58,446 nucleotides of DNA from IMG/VR virus record IMGVR_UViG_3300020711_000011, positions 1-58,446 of that record; one strand, written 5' to 3'. The notes beneath the pieces were generated by a model. The model was not told the DNA's origin. It worked only from the letters and a program-made list of their open reading frames with translations, and made no database searches. This document shows positions 5,870 through 53,114 of the stretch, piece after piece. The DNA is from a virus. The translations under genes were made by a program, and so were the position numbers. Position 1 is the stretch's first letter. Each line of letters begins with the position of its first letter.

Positions 5870-8089
5870 TTAAGATATTGATGCATTATTGCCAGCAGAA
5901 CCATTATGCCCTGTTAAAATTAATGTATATGAATAAGTTCCATTTGAAGATATATCAAGGGTTTGCGTATCTGTTAAATATCCGTCTGCATATCCATTCA
6001 CCTGTCCAATTCCACTTATATTTAATTGTGAACTTGTCCAATGTCCAGAACTTGCACCACCAAACGTTTTTAATGTTATTGTTACTGGAGCATTTTGTAC
6101 ATTGATAACTCCACCGACGTTTGTATTATCTAGATCAACATATGTTGGACCTAAAATAGTATATGGAGCAGCTACAATTAATGATATTGCATTTGATTGG
6201 AAATATACTCCGTATGATGGAGGTACTGCACTATTGTCTTGCAATCTAATCAATACTCTGTATAAATAAGTTCCTACTGCTGATTCATTTGCATCATACG
6301 TTGCACCCGTTGCCCCTACAACATTACTCCATGTTGTTCCACTGTCTGCACTTCTTTCCCATTGATATGATGGACCAGCATCGTATCCTACGGGTAATAA
6401 TGTTTTAGATGCGTACATCGTAATTGTTGTGTTCGCTGAAGTCGTATATGTATGAACACCAGATCCAACGTTATCAAATTCTGCAACCGCATTTACACAT
6501 GTCATTGCATTTGTTCCCTCTAATGTACCAATTGGATTTCCAATCAATACTCCAGAAGTAACGTATCTGATATATCCATTGATTGCATAATATCCTGAAG
6601 ATACTTTATTTGTTGTACCTGTATAATAAACATATACCGTAGAACCAGTTTCAGAAAATGCAAGTGTATCATCTCTCCATGCCGTTGGGAACGTTGAATT
6701 ATTGTAAGCTTGCCATGCTGCAAATGTTGAATTCGTAGAAGGTATTACAATGTCATATCCAGCAGGTGTACCACTACAAGAATCAGTTGTATTATTAGTA
6801 TTATTTAAAAGCGTTATATTTGTGAATGTTACATTAGATCCTGATCCTCCTTGGTTTCCAGCATCTTCCCAATATAAATTATCAGCTCCTAAATAAACAA
6901 TGTACACCATTTTGTATAGGTTGTATTGCGTTCCACTTCCAGCAGTGTAGATATTATCTGTTGCGGTATTTAGCGTTGTTGTTATTGTATATGTAGGAGA
7001 AGCGTAAGCTGCAGCCATCGATGTATCTGAACCTCCTGGTATTGCAATGATGCTATTTGTTACCGATGCAGCTCCTTGACCGGATCCCGCAGGTCTATTT
7101 GTGTTATTATCAATTGTATAACTAAATGAACAAAGATCTACCGTTGAAAATGAAGTAGCACCATTCTCCCATGTTTTACCATTTGAAAGATACCATCCTG
7201 CATAGTTTCCAATACCTCTACCATACGCAACTTCTAATACATCAGAATCTGATGGTAATGTAACGCTTTGCGCAAAATTACTAGTGTTTGTAAAAACAGA
7301 TGTTAAGATTGGAATGATTGTACCAATTGGAACTGAACCTCCTAAATCTGAAACTGATTTCCAAGCTACGGTACCATTTGTATCAGTACTAGCTAGAATT
7401 TGTCCAGAAGCAGGTGATCCAACATTAACTTTTAAGTAGTTATTTATTGTTGCTCCTGCATTAAAGATTGCTGGTGTATTTGCAAGTAATTGACTTGCAT
7501 TTATGGTAACGATGTCATTGGTACCATCAGAAAAAATATATTTAGATGCATTCTTTTTAGAAAGAGTTGCTATTGTTGTATTATCAAATCCTTCTGTTTT
7601 TGTAACTACATTTCCGGAACCAAGTTCAATTCTTAAGAAGCTAGTTGCTGCGGTAACTGCATTTACGCTGTCATCAGTCATTTGTATGTTATCGATATAA
7701 ACATTAGACTTTTTATTTACCAACATCGCCGTATCAGAAATCACATCTCCATAAATAGGATCAGTTGAATCAACACCAATCATAATGGTCGGTGGATTTA
7801 TCTTTCCGCTTACCTGGATCGGTACTAAAGTATCATTGTTACTTCCAATATTTGAATTCCAATATTCTGAACCGATTGTACCTTGAGCACCTTGAGGTCC
7901 TGTTGAACCTTGAGCTCCCTGTGGACCGGTATCACCAGTCAAACCATCAAAACCCTGAGCACCTTGAGCGCCTTGGGATCCGATTGGTCCACCGCCATTC
8001 ACCAAAATTTGGTCAAAATTATAATTAATCTTGTCCAACTTTTGCTGATCAGAATCGGTATTTAATATTTCTTTAAGATTGTCAATCAT
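5870..8089 (-). CDS. Collagen-like tail fibre protein A
   Basis: A 739-residue fibre. Residues 1-33 form an anchor with the INYNFDQI motif that recurs in two other virion proteins here. Residues 34-72 are 13 uninterrupted collagen-type Gly-x-y triplets, including GPQGAQGSTGPQGAQG. The remainder is a long Ser/Thr/Asn-rich beta region; a module around residues 250-410 (VPIGTIIPI then GWYLSNGKTW) resembles a segment of the next gene and the tail-collar style of phage fibres. The collagen triplets should trimerise the shaft. It lies directly downstream of its paralogue 8131-10203. Host receptor binding by the C-terminal part is inferred. Confidence 0.8.
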   Translation of the reverse strand: MIDNLKEILNTDSDQQKLDKINYNFDQILVNGGGPIGSQGAQGAQGFDGLTGDTGPQGAQGSTGPQGAQGTIGSEYWNSNIGSNNDTLVPIQVSGKINPPTIMIGVDSTDPIYGDVISDTAMLVNKKSNVYIDNIQMTDDSVNAVTAATSFLRIELGSGNVVTKTEGFDNTTIATLSKKNASKYIFSDGTNDIVTINASQLLANTPAIFNAGATINNYLKVNVGSPASGQILASTDTNGTVAWKSVSDLGGSVPIGTIIPILTSVFTNTSNFAQSVTLPSDSDVLEVAYGRGIGNYAGWYLSNGKTWENGATSFSTVDLCSFSYTIDNNTNRPAGSGQGAASVTNSIIAIPGGSDTSMAAAYASPTYTITTTLNTATDNIYTAGSGTQYNLYKMVYIVYLGADNLYWEDAGNQGGSGSNVTFTNITLLNNTNNTTDSCSGTPAGYDIVIPSTNSTFAAWQAYNNSTFPTAWRDDTLAFSETGSTVYVYYTGTTNKVSSGYYAINGYIRYVTSGVLIGNPIGTLEGTNAMTCVNAVAEFDNVGSGVHTYTTSANTTITMYASKTLLPVGYDAGPSYQWERSADSGTTWSNVVGATGATYDANESAVGTYLYRVLIRLQDNSAVPPSYGVYFQSNAISLIVAAPYTILGPTYVDLDNTNVGGVINVQNAPVTITLKTFGGASSGHWTSSQLNISGIGQVNGYADGYLTDTQTLDISSNGTYSYTLILTGHNGSAGNNASIS

Positions 8090-43781: not shown

Positions 43782-43784
43782 ATA

Positions 43785-43792
43785 GTTATATA
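43785..43792 (-). promoter_or_regulatory. TATATAAC late-type promoter box
   Basis: TATATAAC preceded by TGA on the minus strand, ending 3 bases before the ATG at 43781, directly downstream of a terminator (43808-43825). It marks a new transcription unit and sets the start codon choice. Confidence 0.55.
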
Positions 43793-43807
43793 TCAAACAC
43801 AAAAAGA

Positions 43808-45396: not shown

Positions 45397-45681
45397 TTAG
45401 TATTTTGATGAGATTAAACTAAGAGGGGCACTGATCCTTTGGTTAGTATCGTTATCAACTAATACTGCTTTGGTACGTTTGATTTCGTTTACCGTGAAAG
45501 TTTTACCAGCCGCTTTAGGATGGTTAACCACTACCACTGAACCATAACTGATAGTTCTTTTAACCGAACCAGCTTCAGTTCTACGACGCAATTTAATAAC
45601 TTCGATAACATCAACATTAAGTTGAGAGAGTTCAGCGCTAGAAAGATTAGATAGAGCTGATTTGATTTGAGAATAATTCAT
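45397..45681 (-). CDS. Small hypothetical protein under the ACCGTGTCA promoter
   Basis: A 94-residue protein with a helical N-terminal half (SQIKSALSNLSSAELSQLN) and a basic SH3/KOW-like C-terminal beta region (YGSVVVVNHPKAAGKTFTV, NQRISAPLSLISSKY). It might bind RNA or protein. An 18-base leader separates the ATG from the conserved promoter; the leader ATTAAAACAAACAAT is shared with the next gene upstream. Confidence 0.55.
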   Translation of the reverse strand: MNYSQIKSALSNLSSAELSQLNVDVIEVIKLRRRTEAGSVKRTISYGSVVVVNHPKAAGKTFTVNEIKRTKAVLVDNDTNQRISAPLSLISSKY

Positions 45682-45699: not shown

Positions 45700-45734
45700 A
45701 TGTAAATATAAACATTTTTTCTGACACGGTAAAA
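45700..45734 (-). promoter_or_regulatory. Early-type promoter A (ACCGTGTCA-N7-TGTTTATATTTACAT)
   Basis: Conserved 35-base element on the minus strand: TTTTACCGTGTCA, 7 bases, then TGTTTATATTTACAT. The TATATTTA fits a Bacteroidota -7 box, and TTTTA lies 19 bases upstream of it at the expected -33 place. The same element occurs at 46062 and 51538. Confidence 0.75.
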
Positions 45735-45735
45735 T

Positions 45736-46041
45736 TTATTTTTTAATTAAATCAGTACCAGTAAAAATATGACCTATTACGTACAAACCATCACTTCTTT
45801 TAACCAAATATCTTTTACATCTACGGTTTCTTTTAGGAACTATTAAGTTTTCTAAATGATGATTGAGCGAACTGCTACGTCCATAATTCAGTTGACCTCT
45901 TAATTCTACTTGATAGAATTCATCCATTGTTTTATATCGAACTGGACCATTTAACTGAACAAAATCTAAAATAGATTGAGTGATATAACCGTGTTGTCCT
46001 TCTTTAAGACGACTTTTGAAATTTTTAGTTTGAATATTCAT
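45736..46041 (-). CDS. Small hypothetical protein, possible DNA-binding
   Basis: A 101-residue basic protein. It has a wHTH-like pattern (YITQSILDFVQLNGPVRYK, YKTMDEFYQVELRGQLNYG) followed by a basic beta hairpin (KRNRRCKRYLVKRSDGLYV). This is consistent with a small winged-helix regulator, but no family is recognised. It is driven by promoter B and followed immediately by promoter A, so it might regulate this early region; that is inference. Confidence 0.5.
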   Translation of the reverse strand: MNIQTKNFKSRLKEGQHGYITQSILDFVQLNGPVRYKTMDEFYQVELRGQLNYGRSSSLNHHLENLIVPKRNRRCKRYLVKRSDGLYVIGHIFTGTDLIKK

Positions 46042-46061
46042 ATTGTTTGTTTTTAATTATA

Positions 46062-46095
46062 ATGTAATATAAACAATTTCTATGACACGGTAAAA
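46062..46095 (-). promoter_or_regulatory. Early-type promoter B (ACCGTGTCA-N7-TGTTTATATTACAT)
   Basis: Second copy of the early element on the minus strand, with the same TTTTACCGTGTCA, the same 7-base gap, then TGTTTATATTACAT; it lies 20 bases before the ATG at 46041. The leader TTAAAAACAAACAAT is nearly identical to that of promoter A. Confidence 0.75.
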
Positions 46096-46099
46096 TATT

Positions 46100-47023
46100 T
46101 TATAAACTATTTTCAAAATCTTTTCTGTACTTAAGCAGTGCAAGTTCTTTTGCCTTTGATTCTAATTCTATATCAATCAAATATCCGTGTGTATTGATTT
46201 CTTCGTAGATGTAATCGGCATGAGCCCTGAAGATAGAATCTTCGTCTTCGTTAATTTTCTTCGACGATGAATAGTGCGTTATTGGAATAATGCTGCTGTC
46301 CCATGATTTGAATGCCAGTCCAAGGGCTTCTGCTTCGGTAAGGTTACCTGGGTTGCATTGATGATGCAGAAAATCGAATGTGATCGGAATTCCAATGTTC
46401 TTATAGATTCCTTCGTATAGGTCTTCTACCGTGTACATCGAAGCCTTGTCATCATTCTCGATCACCAATCTTTTCTTTGCAGTATCATCCAACAGCTGGA
46501 AGTTGTCGCAGAATGTCCTGATTGTCTTCTCTTTGTCGCCATAAGCACCACCAATATGAATATTGATTGGATAATAAGGTGTTCGTGGCAGACCCATCAG
46601 ATCCAATATCTGACCATGCTGACACAGTTCTTTGTATGCTTTTTGAACAACTTGCGGCTTTGGAGATGCCAATACGTTAAAGGGTCCAGGATGGAACGTA
46701 AGTCTTACACCATTTTTTTGTACCGTATCACCGATACGTTCTAATATGACCTGAATCTTTTTGAAGTCTGGAAGATCGGTTAACTCATATTCTGACATCC
46801 ACGGAACCATATCGCTTGACATTCGGTACACTTTGATACCTCGTTGAATGTTCCATTGAATTACCTTTTCGAGGTCTTCGACGTTTTTAAGAGTGAGTTC
46901 TGAAGAGTACTTGATGCCTTTATCGTTGAAAGTTTTTCTGATCATCGATCTATTGGTCGTCAAGTTTTTTGATTCTTGTAACGTAAGATTAATGCAACAA
47001 TAACCCAAATTTAAGTTGCTCAT
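46100..47023 (-). CDS. uvsE: UV DNA damage endonuclease (UVDE/UvsE)
   Basis: A 307-residue UvsE-type TIM-barrel nuclease, which nicks DNA 5' to UV photoproducts and starts alternative excision repair. The metal-site residues fit the family: LTFHPGPF (His111), NIHIGGAYGDKE (His156), LVIENDD (Glu189), ITFDFLHHQC (Asp217, His220/His221) and ITHYSSS (His250). The N-terminus LGYCCINLTL is typical. Full length compared with bacterial enzymes (about 300 residues). Phage-encoded UVDE is uncommon; T4 uses DenV glycosylase instead. It lies 2 bases downstream of the next gene upstream, in the same unit. Confidence 0.92.
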   Translation of the reverse strand: MSNLNLGYCCINLTLQESKNLTTNRSMIRKTFNDKGIKYSSELTLKNVEDLEKVIQWNIQRGIKVYRMSSDMVPWMSEYELTDLPDFKKIQVILERIGDTVQKNGVRLTFHPGPFNVLASPKPQVVQKAYKELCQHGQILDLMGLPRTPYYPINIHIGGAYGDKEKTIRTFCDNFQLLDDTAKKRLVIENDDKASMYTVEDLYEGIYKNIGIPITFDFLHHQCNPGNLTEAEALGLAFKSWDSSIIPITHYSSSKKINEDEDSIFRAHADYIYEEINTHGYLIDIELESKAKELALLKYRKDFENSL

Positions 47024-47025
47024 TA

Positions 47026-47418
47026 TTAATATTCTTTTTCAAATTCGTAATAGTAATCTGCAGCTGCACAGTCTCTAAAAGCATCTAAGATTAAAAAGTC
47101 CATGTTTGTTCCATTTATGTTTTCAAAGAATCGATTAAATTCATCTTGTAGATTTTCAGCAGGAACTTTAGGTTGTAGATAATTTAATACTGCTGAAACT
47201 GCTCTACCTGCAACTGTACTATCATCTGTAAATCTATAGCCTCTATAATAATCTTCTCCAGCAGGAAATGTATCGAATATTTCTTGATCTGAATATCTCA
47301 TTCGATAAAGACTAACTGCAGTCTGCACTGATGCCGTTTGGCTATTGGTTTGGATGTTAGGAATGTAGGTAGATCCGTTGCATTCGATTTCATTGATGTT
47401 AATTTCTAAGTTGTTCAT
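47026..47418 (-). CDS. Small acidic hypothetical protein
   Basis: A 130-residue acidic protein of unknown family. The C-terminal half is helical and ends in an acidic aromatic stretch (CAAADYYYEFEKEY). It is the first gene of a unit containing UVDE; the start is preceded by a TGTTTATATTTGCAT promoter at 47442-47460, whose core equals that of promoters A-C. Confidence 0.5.
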   Translation of the reverse strand: MNNLEININEIECNGSTYIPNIQTNSQTASVQTAVSLYRMRYSDQEIFDTFPAGEDYYRGYRFTDDSTVAGRAVSAVLNYLQPKVPAENLQDEFNRFFENINGTNMDFLILDAFRDCAAADYYYEFEKEY

Positions 47419-47441
47419 TTTTTGTTTTAGTTTTTAATGAT

Positions 47442-47460
47442 ATGCAAATATAAACAAAAA
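47442..47460 (-). promoter_or_regulatory. Promoter with TGTTTATATTTGCAT core
   Basis: TTTTTGTTTATATTTGCAT on the minus strand, 23 bases upstream of the ATG at 47418. It has the exact TATATTTG -7 box of Bacteroidota but no ACCGTGTCA: the terminator T-run occupies that place. Confidence 0.6.
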
Positions 47461-47484
47461 TGCCCAGATTAAAAAATCTGGGCA
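47461..47484 (-). terminator. Rho-independent terminator
   Basis: Perfect 10-bp stem (TGCCCAGATT / AATCTGGGCA) with a 4-base loop, followed by five T on the minus strand, downstream of the membrane protein gene. The T-run overlaps the next promoter. Confidence 0.92.
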
Positions 47485-47510
47485 CAACTATTTTTAAAAA
47501 AAGTTTTAAA

Positions 47511-47855
47511 TTATTTCCAAAGCAACTGGACCGCAATTAAAATAGCTGCGATTCCTAAAGAAACCATAGTTTTTGTATTAAGACCTTCATCCATTAGGAT
47601 CCAAGTCATTACGGCAAAGATTACCATTCCAGTAGCTTGACCTAAAAATCTTGCAGGCCAAAGCTCTCCTTTAAAGTGTAGGGCAATATATTGTACTGAT
47701 TGAATAAACATATAGGACGCAGAGGTACCGAATATAAGTGATACGATAAACGGATGTTCTTTAAATTTAGGATAGATGAACTGTCCATAACTTTGAAACC
47801 ACACCAAAATTTGCGCGAAAGCCATATAGAGAAATCCAATAGTTAAATTGTTCAT
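47511..47855 (-). CDS. Four-helix membrane protein (SMR/DMT-like)
   Basis: A 114-residue integral membrane protein with four predicted transmembrane helices (about residues 5-22, 35-55, 68-88 and 94-113). The third helix GQATGMVIFAVMTWILMDEG followed by LNTKTMVSLGIAAILIAV is the two-helix pattern of small multidrug resistance/DMT-fold proteins. Residue Glu14-type binding seen in EmrE is not evident, so transport is unproven. It shares a start-stop junction with RNase HII (47855) and is followed by a strong terminator. Possible roles are metabolite export, exclusion, or a holin-like function. Confidence 0.65.
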   Translation of the reverse strand: MNNLTIGFLYMAFAQILVWFQSYGQFIYPKFKEHPFIVSLIFGTSASYMFIQSVQYIALHFKGELWPARFLGQATGMVIFAVMTWILMDEGLNTKTMVSLGIAAILIAVQLLWK

Positions 47856-48484
47856 TAGAATAATTGTTCTGTTTTTGTTAACAGATGCGATATGAAACTC
47901 ATTCTATGATTTTTACTAGGACCTAATGTTTTAATTGCATTAATGTGCGCTGCAGTACCATATCCCTTGTTCGAAGCCCATCCATAAATCTTACCCTCTT
48001 CTTCGTTTCTCATCCATTCATCATGTTTTACCTTTGCTATGATCGAAGCCGCAGCGATGGCAGTATATTTATTGTCTCCACCGACTATTGTTTGATATTT
48101 ATAATCATGATAGCCGTGAAATTGATCTCCATCGACAATAATAAAATCAAATTGTTGGTTTTGTTCTGTTAAACTATCCAAACATTTCTTCATTCCATGC
48201 ATCGTTGCATTTAAAATGTTGATCTTCTCGATCATTTCAGGTTCTATATGGACACAAGACCATGCGATCACATTATCCATTACCACTTTATAAGATTCTG
48301 CCTTCTGTGGTTCAGAAAGCAATTTAGAATCTCTTATCGCTGGGTGTTGGAATCCAATGGGCATTATGCATGCTGCAACGGTAACCGGTCCTGCTAAAGC
48401 TCCTCTTCCAGCCTCATCGAGTCCAACCTCTATAATGCTTGTGTTCTCGTTAAACTGCGATTTCAATAAGATCAATTTTGGCAT
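47855..48484 (-). CDS. rnhB: Ribonuclease HII
   Basis: A 209-residue RNase HII, which removes RNA from RNA-DNA hybrids and single ribonucleotides. Catalytic acids are visible: GLDEAGRGALAGP with Asp23 and Glu24, IIVDGDQFHG with Asp118, and AAASIIAKVKHDEW with Asp155. The DSKLLS motif (residues 52-57) and the HxxSF-type ending (NHRMSFISHLL) also fit. Length matches bacterial RnhB. T4-like phages normally use an RNase H of FEN type (rnh), so this bacterial-type enzyme is unusual. It could have been acquired from the host lineage. Overlaps the membrane protein start by one base. Confidence 0.95.
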   Translation of the reverse strand: MPKLILLKSQFNENTSIIEVGLDEAGRGALAGPVTVAACIMPIGFQHPAIRDSKLLSEPQKAESYKVVMDNVIAWSCVHIEPEMIEKINILNATMHGMKKCLDSLTEQNQQFDFIIVDGDQFHGYHDYKYQTIVGGDNKYTAIAAASIIAKVKHDEWMRNEEEGKIYGWASNKGYGTAAHINAIKTLGPSKNHRMSFISHLLTKTEQLF

Positions 48485-48531
48485 ATACGTAAATTAAGTA
48501 TTTAATCTTATATGAAAATATGTGTAAAAGT

Positions 48532-49218
48532 TTACTTACCGTTCTCATCTTTCCACTTTTCATAGCGGTTAACAACGTCTTGTAGAATTTTAGCTCTTAC
48601 AATATCTTTTTCGCCAAAGATATGTGTTCCGATTCCTTTAATTCCTTTCAACATATCCATGAACGACGGCAGAGATACCTTTGATTTAGCGATGTCGTGT
48701 TGACTTACGTCTCCAGCAACTATCACTTTAGAATCCTTACCCATTCTGGTAACAAAAAGCATCAATTGTTTATAATCGGCGTTTTGCGCTTCATCAAGGA
48801 TCATCAATGCATCATCGAATGTATCACCTCTCATGTATGCGAGCGGTTGAAATTCAATAATGCCTTTTCCGAATAGGGTTTCAGTCTGAGAGAAGCCTAT
48901 GATTTTTTCAATATTGGATTTATAAGATTTCATGTAGGGATCCACCTTCTCATCGATCGTTCCTGGTAAAAAACCAAGTTTCTCTCCAGCCTCTTGAATG
49001 GGCTTACATAAAATAATTCTTTTAATTTTCTGTTCTTGTAATAATTGGAGTGCTACATAGCATGCTGTAAAAGTTTTAGAGGTACCTGCTGGTCCATAAC
49101 AAAATGTAATATCATTCTCTAAAACCGTATCGACATAATTAATTTGAGATTGCCTTAATTGTACGTGATTGGTTGTTTCCTTCTGACTGCTGTTCTTTTG
49201 ATTTTTAGATGATGCCAT
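48532..49218 (-). CDS. phoH: PhoH-like ATPase
   Basis: A 228-residue PhoH-family P-loop ATPase. Walker A is GPAGTSKT (residues 42-49); Walker B is LMILDEAQN with Asp142 and Glu143; the sensor-like VIVAGDVSQHD and the preceding RIILCKPIQEAGEKLGFLPG are typical. PhoH proteins are common in phage genomes and are thought to act on RNA, but their role in infection is not settled. The N-terminal 20 residues are Ser/Lys/Gln-rich and disordered. It is the last gene of the DnaJ-bS21 unit. Confidence 0.92.
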   Translation of the reverse strand: MASSKNQKNSSQKETTNHVQLRQSQINYVDTVLENDITFCYGPAGTSKTFTACYVALQLLQEQKIKRIILCKPIQEAGEKLGFLPGTIDEKVDPYMKSYKSNIEKIIGFSQTETLFGKGIIEFQPLAYMRGDTFDDALMILDEAQNADYKQLMLFVTRMGKDSKVIVAGDVSQHDIAKSKVSLPSFMDMLKGIKGIGTHIFGEKDIVRAKILQDVVNRYEKWKDENGK

Positions 49219-49234
49219 GCATTTTATCTATTTT

Positions 49235-49483
49235 TTAGTCTCCTGCCATTATAACAAGATCCTTGAGCTTCATCAGTTTTTCGCACTTTTCATACTCTTC
49301 CAAGTCTTCAAAGTACTCAACCAATAAATCTATAAATTTTGATCGTTGACCAGTTCCGTGTGGGATTTCGATGGTATTCTTACCATCTTGGAATGCAATA
49401 AACCTGTTCACAGTCTTGGTAAAGTTTCTAGTTACATTGTAGTAACTAGATCTCATTAGGCTATCTTTTTCTTCGTTAGACAT
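49235..49483 (-). CDS. Small EYEKC-motif protein, copy 1 (UVR-like C-terminus)
   Basis: An 82-residue protein from MSNEEKDSL (ATG 49481-49483). Another ATG lies 9 bases upstream, and an open frame continues to a TTG at 49604-49606, but that extension runs through the intergenic region. Residues 52-76 (LLVEYFEDLEEYEKCEKLMK) match the C-terminal helices of two further proteins nearby (49801-50061 and 51187-51519), with the invariant EEYEKC. The pattern looks like the UVR motif of UvrB/UvrC/McsA-type proteins, a two-helix protein-binding hairpin. Function unknown. It lies between bS21 and PhoH. Confidence 0.7.
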   Translation of the reverse strand: MSNEEKDSLMRSSYYNVTRNFTKTVNRFIAFQDGKNTIEIPHGTGQRSKFIDLLVEYFEDLEEYEKCEKLMKLKDLVIMAGD

Positions 49484-49615
49484 ATAATTCATTACCAGTC
49501 TGTTCTTTCTTTTTGTGGCTGTATACCGTTGTTCGAGGTATATATTACAGCCGAACAAATAATACAACAATTTCGGATATTTTATTACGTTAATAAAATG
49601 TAACAAAATCCCTGA

Positions 49616-49804
49616 TTAGTCTATGTTTTGTTGTTTTTGTTGTTTGTAGATTGCTTTAAGGTTCTGAGTTCTATTGATAACACTTGGTTTTTCGAACTCT
49701 TTTCTTTTTTGTAGCTCTTGGGTTTGCTTAGTTTTAAGAACCTTTCTTTTGTATTCCTTTAGAGCTTTTTCAATATTACCGTCTTTGATATTAACTATAA
49801 TCAT
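49616..49804 (-). CDS. rpsU: Ribosomal protein bS21, phage-encoded
   Basis: A 62-residue bS21 homologue: MIIVNIKDGNIEKALKEYKR then KEFEKPSVINRTQNLKAIY match Bacteroidota bS21 (IEKALKxxKRK, EFxKPSVxxRxxxxKAxY). The conserved C-terminal aromatic residue is kept (Tyr53). In Bacteroidota, bS21 with bS18 and bS6 sequesters the anti-Shine-Dalgarno tail of 16S rRNA, so a phage copy could alter which mRNAs the 30S selects. The start overlaps the stop of the upstream gene (ATGA). Unlike host rpsU of many Flavobacteriales, no extended SD precedes it. The family is secure; incorporation into ribosomes is inferred. Confidence 0.93.
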   Translation of the reverse strand: MIIVNIKDGNIEKALKEYKRKVLKTKQTQELQKRKEFEKPSVINRTQNLKAIYKQQKQQNID

Positions 49805-50061
49805 AGAGTTTCAATAATTTTTTTAAGGTTGTGACACTTTTCATATTCTTCGCGAGATTCAAACCATTTTATTAATATATCTAATGCTTCAATTTGAGTT
49901 TCTCGAGGTACATTTCCATCTTGTAGAGCACCCATCTTTTTTTCAATCAATGCGCGATATGTGATTTCCATCATTTGCGCCTGATTTAATGTTGCTAAAT
50001 AACTAAAGAATTGGTTTGGATTATTTCCATCTAGTATATCATCATACTGTTCCACTTTCAA
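49801..50061 (-). CDS. Small EYEKC-motif protein, copy 2
   Basis: An 86-residue paralogue of 49235-49483 and 51187-51519. Its C-terminal helices (LIKWFESREEYEKCHNLKK, residues 63-81) share W/YF-x(3)-EEYEKC-x(2)-L with them. The N-terminal 60 residues are different and helical. Start overlaps the DnaJ gene by 20 bases, and the TGA stop overlaps the bS21 ATG, so it is coupled to both. It could act as an adaptor for the chaperone or ribosome function, but this is only inferred from position. Confidence 0.7.
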   Translation of the reverse strand: MKVEQYDDILDGNNPNQFFSYLATLNQAQMMEITYRALIEKKMGALQDGNVPRETQIEALDILIKWFESREEYEKCHNLKKIIETL

Positions 50062-50851
50062 CTTCCTTTATTTTATGTATCAGCTCAATTTGAGCATCAT
50101 TTAGGCCGTGGAATGTTGTGTTTAGTTTTACAAGAATCGAACCCGATTCGTGCGTATTGTATATTGGTAGTCCTTTTCCTGGAATTCTAAGTACTTTTCC
50201 AGGTCCTGATTTCGGAGGTATCTTAAATGATATTTTTCCGGTTGGAGCCGTAATTTCTGCGGTAGTACCCAATATCATATCATAGAACCTGACATTGGTT
50301 TCGAACCATATATCATTCCCTTGTATGATAAATTGTTCACTTGGTATAATTGTAACCGTGACAATTAGATCACCCCTGGGAGCGTTACTGTTCATTGGGT
50401 GATATTGACCTCTTTGCGGGTACTTAAATATCATTCCGTTCTTCACTCCTTTTGGAAAATTGATGTTTATCTTATCGTATCCCATGTCAAACACTCGTTG
50501 CGCGCCATAGATCACGTCGTAGATGGACAATTGAGCCGAAACCTTGACGTCCGGACCCTTGTTTCCTCGGTTTCCAAATATGTTATCGAAGTCTCCGGCA
50601 AAATTACTGCCGAAATTAAAGTTCTTTAGCAGATCTTCAAGGGACGGACCGCTTTGTGTACGATCGTAAGTTGCCTTTTTATTTGGATCACTTAAGACGC
50701 TATAAGCTTCTTGGATCTGTTGAAATCTGACTTTGGTATTTGCATCTGGATTTTTATCAGGATGGAATTCCTTTGCCAGATTTCGGTATGCACGCTTGAT
50801 TTCATCCTGCGTTGCAGCATCACTAACTCCTAATGTGTTGTAGTGACTCAT
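50042..50851 (-). CDS. DnaJ/CbpA-type J-domain co-chaperone
   Basis: A 269-residue J-protein. Residues 3-65 are a J domain with the His30-Pro-Asp32 motif (LAKEFHPDKNPDANTK), needed to stimulate Hsp70 (host DnaK). A Gly/Phe-rich linker (NFGSNFAGDFDNIFGNRG) follows, then the two C-terminal substrate-binding barrels (VSAQLSIYDVIYGAQRVFDM and RGDLIVTVTIIPSEQF). There is no CxxCxGxG zinc finger, so it is CbpA-like. A phage J-protein may recruit DnaK for virion assembly or replication. The Hsp20 gene lies about 0.7 kb upstream. Confidence 0.92.
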   Translation of the reverse strand: MSHYNTLGVSDAATQDEIKRAYRNLAKEFHPDKNPDANTKVRFQQIQEAYSVLSDPNKKATYDRTQSGPSLEDLLKNFNFGSNFAGDFDNIFGNRGNKGPDVKVSAQLSIYDVIYGAQRVFDMGYDKININFPKGVKNGMIFKYPQRGQYHPMNSNAPRGDLIVTVTIIPSEQFIIQGNDIWFETNVRFYDMILGTTAEITAPTGKISFKIPPKSGPGKVLRIPGKGLPIYNTHESGSILVKLNTTFHGLNDAQIELIHKIKEVESGTV

Positions 50852-51087
50852 TATTTCTCGTTTTTACGTCTGTCAATAGCCTCTTGTATCTTTTCTCTGG
50901 TACCGGTAACGATATCGATTTTTTGCTGACGTTCCATTAAATCGGCAACTCGTTTAAGTTGTTTGGCTAGTTCTTGAGCGGTTGATTCGGTAATAGGAGA
51001 GACTGTGTTCTTGCTCTTTGGAGATGCCAGGGCTGTGGTCCATCCCTTTGGAACTTTAGCGGGCAATTTTACTTTTTTATCTGACAT
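50851..51087 (-). CDS. Small basic protein upstream of DnaJ
   Basis: A 78-residue Lys-rich protein (VKLPAKVPKGWTTALASPKS) with a helical C-terminal half (AQELAKQLKRVADLMERQQK). Unknown family. Its stop overlaps the DnaJ start by one base, and a TATATAAA box lies 23 bases upstream of its ATG, making it first in the DnaJ-bS21-PhoH unit. The proline/lysine N-terminus suggests a flexible tail. Confidence 0.5.
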   Translation of the reverse strand: MSDKKVKLPAKVPKGWTTALASPKSKNTVSPITESTAQELAKQLKRVADLMERQQKIDIVTGTREKIQEAIDRRKNEK

Positions 51088-51110
51088 AATATTGTAATAT
51101 TTTAATCTAT

Positions 51111-51118
51111 TTTATATA
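51111..51118 (-). promoter_or_regulatory. TATATAAA late-type promoter box
   Basis: TATATAAA on the minus strand, 23 bases upstream of the ATG at 51087. It follows the terminator-like hairpin at 51142-51163, so the DnaJ-bS21-PhoH unit has its own promoter. Confidence 0.5.
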
Positions 51119-51141
51119 TTCGGCTTTCTTTGTTTACAAGA

Positions 51142-51163
51142 ATGGGTTCCTTTCGGAACCCAT
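51142..51163 (-). terminator. Hairpin, probable terminator
   Basis: Perfect 9-bp stem (ATGGGTTCC / GGAACCCAT) with a GAAA loop on the minus strand, downstream of EYEKC copy 3. The T-run after it is weak (TTCTTG), so termination may be partial. Confidence 0.6.
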
Positions 51164-51186
51164 ATCATATCACTACCATAAAATCT

Positions 51187-51519
51187 CTAAATTTGTTCAA
51201 GGTAATCTCTAAGAATCGAACACTTTTCGTACTCTTCGGTCTTTACGAAATAGTTCATCATAAATTCCAGAGTTGCCTTTAATTTTACCATTGCTTCAGG
51301 ATCCAAATTAACCATTTGTCTTGTAGCATTGATGTCTAAACCGTGCATTTGTATGGTTTCGTAATTAAACCTAACATATCCATCGATCGCCTTTTCAAAG
51401 ATTTCATTTGCTTTCATTTTGTCTTCTGAAGAGAAGTCATCTGGAAATTCATTGTCATTGAAATTTTCTTCAAAGCCATCTTCGTCATCAAAAAAGTCGT
51501 CGTTAAAATCGTCAATCAT
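51187..51519 (-). CDS. EYEKC-motif protein, copy 3
   Basis: A 110-residue acidic protein. Residues 1-35 are strongly acidic (FNDDFFDDEDGFEENFNDNE), and the C-terminal 25 residues (MMNYFVKTEEYEKCSILRD) match EYEKC copies 1 and 2; EKCxxLRD is closest to a UVR motif. It is a single-gene unit: promoter C (51538-51572) is 18 bases upstream, and a hairpin lies downstream. Early expression of a short acidic protein suggests a host-directed role; no function known. Confidence 0.7.
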   Translation of the reverse strand: MIDDFNDDFFDDEDGFEENFNDNEFPDDFSSEDKMKANEIFEKAIDGYVRFNYETIQMHGLDINATRQMVNLDPEAMVKLKATLEFMMNYFVKTEEYEKCSILRDYLEQI

Positions 51520-51537
51520 AAGTTATTTATTTAATTT

Positions 51538-51572
51538 ATGTAAATATAAACAATTTATCTGATACGGTAAAA
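51538..51572 (-). promoter_or_regulatory. Early-type promoter C (ACCGTATCA-N7-TGTTTATATTTACAT)
   Basis: Third copy of the early element on the minus strand: TTTTACCGTATCA, 7 bases, TGTTTATATTTACAT, 18 bases upstream of the ATG at 51519. It differs from copies A and B by one G-to-A change in the conserved box. Confidence 0.75.
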
Positions 51573-52798: not shown

Positions 52799-53047
52799 TT
52801 ACGCTTCTTTAATGATGTCAAAAATTGAGCAAGGATAGATCCAATACGCTCTATTTAATTTCTTAGCGTCTGCTGGATCGGCTGGTACGTGGAAACTGTA
52901 CCATTTATAACCATAATGTTTGGTTAGATCTTCATTGACTGAGGCTAAAACTCCTACTCTTTGTGAAAAACCACCGAATAGAAATTCATATTCCTTGCCA
53001 ACTTTAGGATTTGCAACGTTAATAGGTCTTGCTTCTTTTTTTGCCAT
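52799..53047 (-). CDS. Small hypothetical protein
   Basis: An 82-residue protein starting MAKKEARPINVANPKVG; the first ATG (53045-53047) is preferred to a TTG extension to 53068, which would lie on the promoter. It is beta-rich with aromatic residues (GKEYEFLFGGFSQRVGVLAS, KHYGYKWYSFHVP) and ends with a short helix. The promoter has TATATTTG at about 16 bases upstream. Unknown function; coupled to the exonuclease gene. Confidence 0.55.
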   Translation of the reverse strand: MAKKEARPINVANPKVGKEYEFLFGGFSQRVGVLASVNEDLTKHYGYKWYSFHVPADPADAKKLNRAYWIYPCSIFDIIKEA

Positions 53048-53063
53048 AAGAATTAATTTATAA

Positions 53064-53080
53064 GACAAATATAAAACAAA
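53064..53080 (-). promoter_or_regulatory. Bacteroidota-type promoter -7 element
   Basis: GTTTTATATTTGTC on the minus strand, 16 bases upstream of the ATG at 53047, with a TATATTTG box and poly-T tracts at the expected -33 distance. No ACCGTGTCA motif is present. Confidence 0.55.
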
Positions 53081-53114
53081 TTTTTCAAACTAAAAAATAT
53101 TTTTCAATATTTTT

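Follow-up and report, generated by a model that had tools for sequence, protein, structure and literature searches.

We propose that five sites in the analyzed DNA, designated A–E, are members of a single early-class family of promoters used by large T4-like phages of Bacteroidota, in which the primary sigma factor of the host (sigma-ABfr) would read an element carrying a phage-specific extended -33 box, and we put the probability of this reading at roughly 0.6. The window, i.e., the whole stretch of 58,446 nucleotides corresponding to IMG/VR record IMGVR_UViG_3300020711_000011, carries 61 called genes, 59 of them on one strand. Its proteins match those of virus records of 200–236 kb (including G001, 236 kb, and G004, 200 kb) with 28–82% identity, and records of this type encode a T4-type clamp loader gp44, a gp32-like protein, a DnaB-type helicase and a gp55-like late sigma factor, the last one found in all six phages tested (the genes of G001 and G004 were called as simple ORF choices). 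In named collections, relatives were found among Bacteroidota phages (Lak phages of Prevotella and Chryseobacterium phages), together with Sphingomonas phage PAU. Given these T4-type proteins and the named relatives, the window is a genome fragment from a large T4-like phage, whose host is probably a member of Bacteroidota. A megablast search with 22 kb of the window indicated no annotated phage that is close at the DNA level, and promoters of large Bacteroidota phages are, to our knowledge, almost undescribed.

The pattern TTTTACCGTRTCA-N7-TGTTTATATT occurs three times in the window, always on the minus strand, at 45734–45705 (copy A), 46095–46066 (copy B) and 51572–51543 (copy C). All three show 0 mismatches to TTTTACCGTRTCANNNNNNNTGTTTATATT, for which no match was found in 100 dinucleotide shuffles with up to 3 mismatches permitted. 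The sequence-only reading had placed three minus-strand copies here; its further details, namely the 7-base gap, the 18–20 bases between ACAT and ATG and the leader common to copies A and B, were also correct. An origin of copies A–C by chance or as a simple repeat was ruled out by the shuffles, the reversed-pattern controls and the matrix scan described below. The 5' edge of each copy lies only a few bases from the stop codon of the upstream gene, the predicted leader between the predicted RNA start and the next ATG is 17–18 nt long, and none of the three copies folds into a hairpin.

The box of predicted promoter A (TTTTACCGTGTCA, -36 to -24; 45722–45734, minus strand) is an exact match without counterpart in the shuffles (matrix score 43.7), and its -7 element TATATTTA (45703–45710) would give an RNA start at about 45698, as predicted from the spacing known for F. 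johnsoniae (PMC6847099). It precedes a gene for a 94-aa protein with no assigned function (45397–45681, minus strand). In predicted promoter B, the same box TTTTACCGTGTCA (46083–46095, minus strand; exact match, also found by the matrix) is combined with a -7 element TATATTA (46065–46071; matrix score 10.0), so that the -7 box reads TATATTACAT and has one T fewer than the other copies; the gene that follows (45736–46041, minus strand) encodes a 101-aa protein, again with no assigned function. Predicted promoter C consists of the box TTTTACCGTATCA (51560–51572, minus strand; exact match, also found by the matrix) and the -7 element TATATTTA (51541–51548; matrix score 45.1), with the RNA start predicted at about 51536, upstream of a gene for a 110-aa acidic protein with no assigned function (51187–51519, minus strand). 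The promoters are retained at orthologous genes whose products are only 31–58% identical: the 94-aa protein has a relative in L133 (58% identity), the 101-aa protein in L140 (56%) and the 110-aa protein in L150, L162, L094 and L124 (31–41%), and in each of these loci a boxed promoter is present as well.

A position matrix trained on other phages was then applied to the window, and the hits were ranked against 30 shuffles. Five sites scored above all shuffles, i.e., those at 51572 (45.1), 45734 (43.7), 47476 (21.4), 46095 (10.0) and 53097 (4.1), the last of which is marginal in view of the best shuffle score of 3.6; the best plus-strand site reached -5.6. All five lie on the coding strand with a predicted leader of 14–22 nt to a start codon. 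The site at 53097 (site E; 53066–53097, minus strand) may be a weaker fifth promoter, with TTTTTTAGTTTGA (2 mismatches) and the -7 element TATATTTG, upstream of the gene at 52799–53047. The site at 47476 (site D) had been described as a fourth core near 47442 lacking the box; the core is indeed present, but the site is not simply box-less, as a terminator-like hairpin stands in the place of the box. This hairpin (47460–47485, minus strand), which resembles an intrinsic terminator, has 11 perfect base pairs, a TTTT loop and a following TTTTTG (-17.4 kcal/mol, z -6.6), and it lies at the 3' end of the gene upstream (47511–47855; 114 aa). Its loop TTTT is at the same time the -33 element of the next predicted promoter, whose -7 element TATATTTG (47445–47452, minus strand; recognized in the sequence and by the matrix) precedes the gene at 47026–47418.

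Within the related phages, the element proved to be far more common than the three copies with a conserved box that had been described: the copies and the box are real, but there are dozens of them per genome and ACCGTGTCA represents just one form of a less strict box, which reads TTTnCnGnnTC, or TTTTnnnnTGTC when two phage groups are considered. The general form comprises A/T tracts, the box TTTnCnGnnTC at -36 to -24 and then TTGWTTATATTTAC. The exact 30-base pattern was found in 28 stretches of IMG/VR, and with up to 3 mismatches there were 9–11 copies in each large (near-)complete record (200–236 kb), all on one, coding, strand, while the reversed pattern gave 0 matches in the same records at the same threshold. 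Iterated matrix scans, run on the window together with G001 and G004, gave a total of 66 sites, and each of the related 200–236 kb T4-like phages contains dozens of boxed promoters. The idea of a phage-specific promoter family was thus supported by the strong enrichment of the pattern in front of genes in related phages.

Across all fetched loci, 192 distinct promoters were collected, in which the (near-)invariant positions are TTT at -23 to -21, C/G at -19, G at -17, T at -14, TTG at -5 to -3 and TTATATTTAC from -1 (counted here from the first T of TATATTT; the host numbering used elsewhere in this text is obtained by subtracting 12). Since the sites were gathered by their TATATTTACA core, the core was fixed by the search and the box was not. 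The information-rich positions are -36 to -24 and -17 to -2, the latter around the -7 element. The TTT at -33 is conserved in 99–100% of cases at the right distance, and the next base is A or C, not G. The last base of the -7 element varies: it is G at sites D and E, copies A and C carry TATATTTA, the element of B reads TATATTA, most relatives have TTTAC, and both forms occur in Chryseobacterium phage MA9V-1. Upstream modules were also observed at about -62 to -40 of boxed promoters (L062–L073), i.e., TTTAACA present twice 11 bp apart, TTGTTAATAACTTTTTG and CTTTTTGAAAATAATT, the last of which occurs in MA9V-1 too.

TTTTnnnnTGTC also precedes TATATTT(A/G), with unchanged spacing, in Chryseobacterium phages MA9V-1 and MA9V-2, where there were 43 coding-strand versus 4 opposite-strand matches in MA9V-1 (control: 0 and 1) and 40 versus 1 in MA9V-2 (control: 0 and 2). 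The proteins of MA9V-1 and G001 are only about 21–45% identical, and judged by these sequence matches the box is older than the group of freshwater relatives, being common to both Chryseobacterium phages. In Lak phage B5 and in PAU, the box pattern was no commoner than the control. In MA9V-1, boxed promoters are distributed genome-wide, including the structural part, so they need not be strictly early in this phage. In the open-access literature, the papers on MA9V-1 and MA9V-2 do not mention promoters (a description in a closed journal is possible). A strictly phage-only box shared by groups with such divergent proteins suggests a conserved mode of capturing the host polymerase, and MA9V-1 together with C. 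indologenes offers a cultured system in which to test it.

The box has no visible counterpart in bacterial hosts, in agreement with the earlier suggestion that it is not a host element. A scan of bacterial and archaeal genomes amounting to 257 Gb gave the general pattern in 7 stretches only, several of them within reading frames and one (Salegentibacter, L087) 28 nt before an ORF, as against more than 100 among the matches listed for the virus collection. In 148 Flavobacteriales genomes, the box combined with the -7 element gave 1 match, a number equal to that at a wrong spacing, and with the general host -7 element TANNTTTG, 60 genomes gave 3 matches versus 6 at a wrong spacing. The assumption that a host promoter was copied by the phage is accordingly unsupported, as the box architecture is enriched neither in Flavobacteriales nor in the 257-Gb set. 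The -7 box is, as had been noticed, of the Bacteroidota type, and the boxed promoters partly resemble those of sigma-ABfr (TTTG/TAHHTTTG; PMC6847099, PMC7366714) in their -7 element TATATTT(A/G), the T-run at -33 and the A-rich leaders. They differ in that most boxed copies have a -7 element ending in A, whereas host promoters almost invariably have G at -5 (PMC6847099), and in the long box at -36 to -24, the -33 motif being hardly visible in F. johnsoniae (PMC6847099).

In the mechanism that we favor, the host RNA polymerase, carrying a primary sigma factor of the sigma-ABfr type, would melt the -7 element TTATATTT(A/G), and the extended -33 box (TTTnCnGnnTC with the core TTTTnnnnTGTC, -36 to -24), together with the upstream A/T tracts, would make a strong promoter that is not host-like, the box either adding an extended -33 contact or binding a factor. 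The RNA start would lie some 12 nt past the first T of TATATTT, and the A-rich leader, about 14–22 nt long, would suit ribosomes that do not use Shine-Dalgarno sequences. Promoter activity, its timing, recognition by the host sigma factor and the role of the box are all predicted here from sequence features.

Because the box is without counterpart in host promoters, it could be read by a phage protein rather than by the host sigma factor. In T4, a MotA box with its center at -30 stands in for the -35 element (PMC2988021), and the box described here (-36 to -24, center -30) occupies the same position over a host-type -10-like element, which makes a phage activator a serious rival. The boxed promoters would then be T4-like middle promoters, at which the host sigma factor reads the -7 element only and an early phage protein occupies the -30 box and assumes the -33 contact in a MotA/AsiA-like sigma appropriation; the specificity of the box, absent from hosts, and the T4-like gene content of the phages also fit this scheme. 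On the other hand, the box is unrelated in sequence to the MotA box and differs from it in length, G001, G004 and the window showed no separate early class, i.e., no host-type promoters lacking the box from which an infection could begin, and no MotA/AsiA homologue appeared among the top families listed. MotA/AsiA-like factors diverge fast. All in all, we consider this scheme possible, though improbable.

A different possibility, which we find quite unlikely, is that the box is read by a phage sigma factor, e.g., the ECF-like 204-aa protein of G001, the RpoS-like MA9V1_023 of MA9V-1 or a sigma factor carried in the virion. The G001 protein has sigma regions 2 and 4, its own gene is located behind a boxed promoter, as is that of MA9V1_023, and the annotation of the sigma-like gp1 of PAU (L198:94–1182) as an internal capsid (vertex) protein hints at a virion-carried sigma factor. 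Nevertheless, the sigma factors of G001 and MA9V-1 match different families (phrog_1740 and phrog_351) and showed no blastp match although the box and spacing are the same, which makes a phage sigma factor less likely as the common reader; besides, the -7 core resembles the host consensus, and PAU has a sigma factor and no boxed promoters. The G004 contig ends just short of the ECF-like sigma region, so a loss of the sigma factor in G004 is not valid as a test. The ECF-like gene (L072:10720–11334, minus strand) occurs alongside that of the gp55-like late sigma factor, and its product has relatives in Lak and other huge phages.

The assignment of the boxed promoters to an early class is suggested by their gene content and by the lack of any other visible non-late promoter class. 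They precede non-structural genes and tRNA arrays and hardly ever structural genes; the genes behind them are small ones without assigned function, a sigma factor gene and the tRNA arrays, and in G001 only 1 of the 33 TATATTTACA cores lies inside the structural block, which makes up 19% of the genome. Structural genes have a separate late-type motif, GATATATAA, from which they would be transcribed and which is probably read with the phage gp55-like late sigma factor. The motif GATATATA(A/C) is enriched (30 occurrences in the coding sense, 5 reversed and 1 on the other strand), with 23 of the motifs located 8–45 nt before a start, and it is likely the late promoter. In non-boxed intergenic segments, late-like motifs numbered 35 versus 12 for the reversed form; in such segments of G001, the host-type TAHHTTTG occurred once versus 1.7 times in shuffles, i.e., without excess, and neither G001 and G004 nor the window showed a second class of host-type promoters lacking the box. 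This absence of a host-type excess without the box, combined with the late-like excess, leaves the boxed class as the sole visible candidate for transcription on entry, which argues that at least some boxed promoters would work at that stage. The GATATATAA motif is present upstream of structural and other genes in both G001 and G004 and also in the window (e.g., 43782–43802).

Like T4, the phages with boxed promoters thus possess a gp55-like protein as well as a separate late-type motif, AT-rich and not to be confused with the boxed promoters; the latter differ from T4 late promoters (TATAAATA-like, with no -35 box, before structural genes) in having a -33 box and avoiding the structural block. 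With the T4 early "uber" UP/-35/TGn/-10 promoters (PMC2988021), they share many near-identical copies of an extended consensus, A/T tracts upstream, TG before the -10-like element, a T4-like phage background and the non-structural genes served. In contrast to T4 early promoters, a Bacteroidota -7 element replaces TATAAT, the boxed -33 element is without host counterpart, and terminator fusion is seen in about 30% of the freshwater-group copies. Arrays of more than 20 tRNA genes were found in G001 and G004 (L072:438–3571 and L074:4696–10140), and none in the window. Boxed promoters preceding tRNA genes (L074:4780–4880 and 5940–6045; G001 near 203440) have in both phages a leader AAATTAGAACAAAGGTTCTTTGACATACTGATAAC that resembles a boxA antitermination signal.

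By its sequence, site D is a member of the terminator-fused class, whose terminator activity is predicted from the form of an intrinsic terminator, a GC-containing hairpin followed by a T-tract, seen at the fused sites. In many relatives, TTTTACCGTGTCAGGTTTTTT constitutes the loop, 3' arm and T-tract of such a terminator, as in CCTGACA-TTTTACCG-TGTCAGG-TTTTTT, CTCCAGA-TTTTACCG-TCTGGAG-TTTTTT and CCCAGAT-TTTCGG-ATCTGGG-TTTTTTT, with the loop over the -33 element and the T-tract serving as the promoter spacer; MA9V-1 has fused copies too (CCCAAATG-TTTTCA-CGTTTGGG-AATTTTTG). The fused forms of relatives fold with about -13 kcal/mol, better than all shuffles, and strong stems were found in 30.2% of the 192 promoters versus 4.5% of chimeras whose left and right parts came from different promoters, a percentage that varies with the score threshold. 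At the position orthologous to site D, all nine distinct sequences keep the hairpin, the T-tract and the -7 element, with 15 double-sided (compensatory) pair changes and 95.6% paired cells, and no double-sided change was seen when the helix was slid by 1–3 columns. The inverted repeats around the box could alternatively be a DNA operator, i.e., a protein-binding palindrome, to which the clean palindrome CCTGACA-N8-TGTCAGG over the -33 region lends itself. An operator would keep its sequence, so the arms, which change freely with compensation next to a constant T-tract, count against it; moreover, several different arms exist and most promoters have no palindrome, and we regard this explanation as very unlikely.

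In about 30% of the copies in freshwater relatives, the same DNA would thus also serve the gene before it as an intrinsic terminator: the loop would hold the -33 TTT, the promoter spacer would be made up of the 3' arm and T-tract, and the next transcript would start about 20–25 nt past the hairpin. Close terminator–promoter pairs with polymerase recycling have been described (PMC11347151), in which the terminator likewise adjoins the next promoter; at the fused sites, the loop doubles as the -33 box and the T-tract as the spacer, so that about 50 bp would fulfill two structural codes simultaneously. A more speculative and rather unlikely extension is that a phage or virion factor reads TTTTnnnnTGTC and redirects the host polymerase, with the composite elements working as termination–reinitiation relays. 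If it were true, a polymerase ending in the T-tract would already be on the next promoter and restart there, and adjacent short genes would be expressed as separate, equal transcripts. A fused element of this kind may be a compact part for Bacteroidota engineering, and the simple element, standing before dozens of genes and forming a promoter unused by hosts, is now testable as a phage take-over switch.
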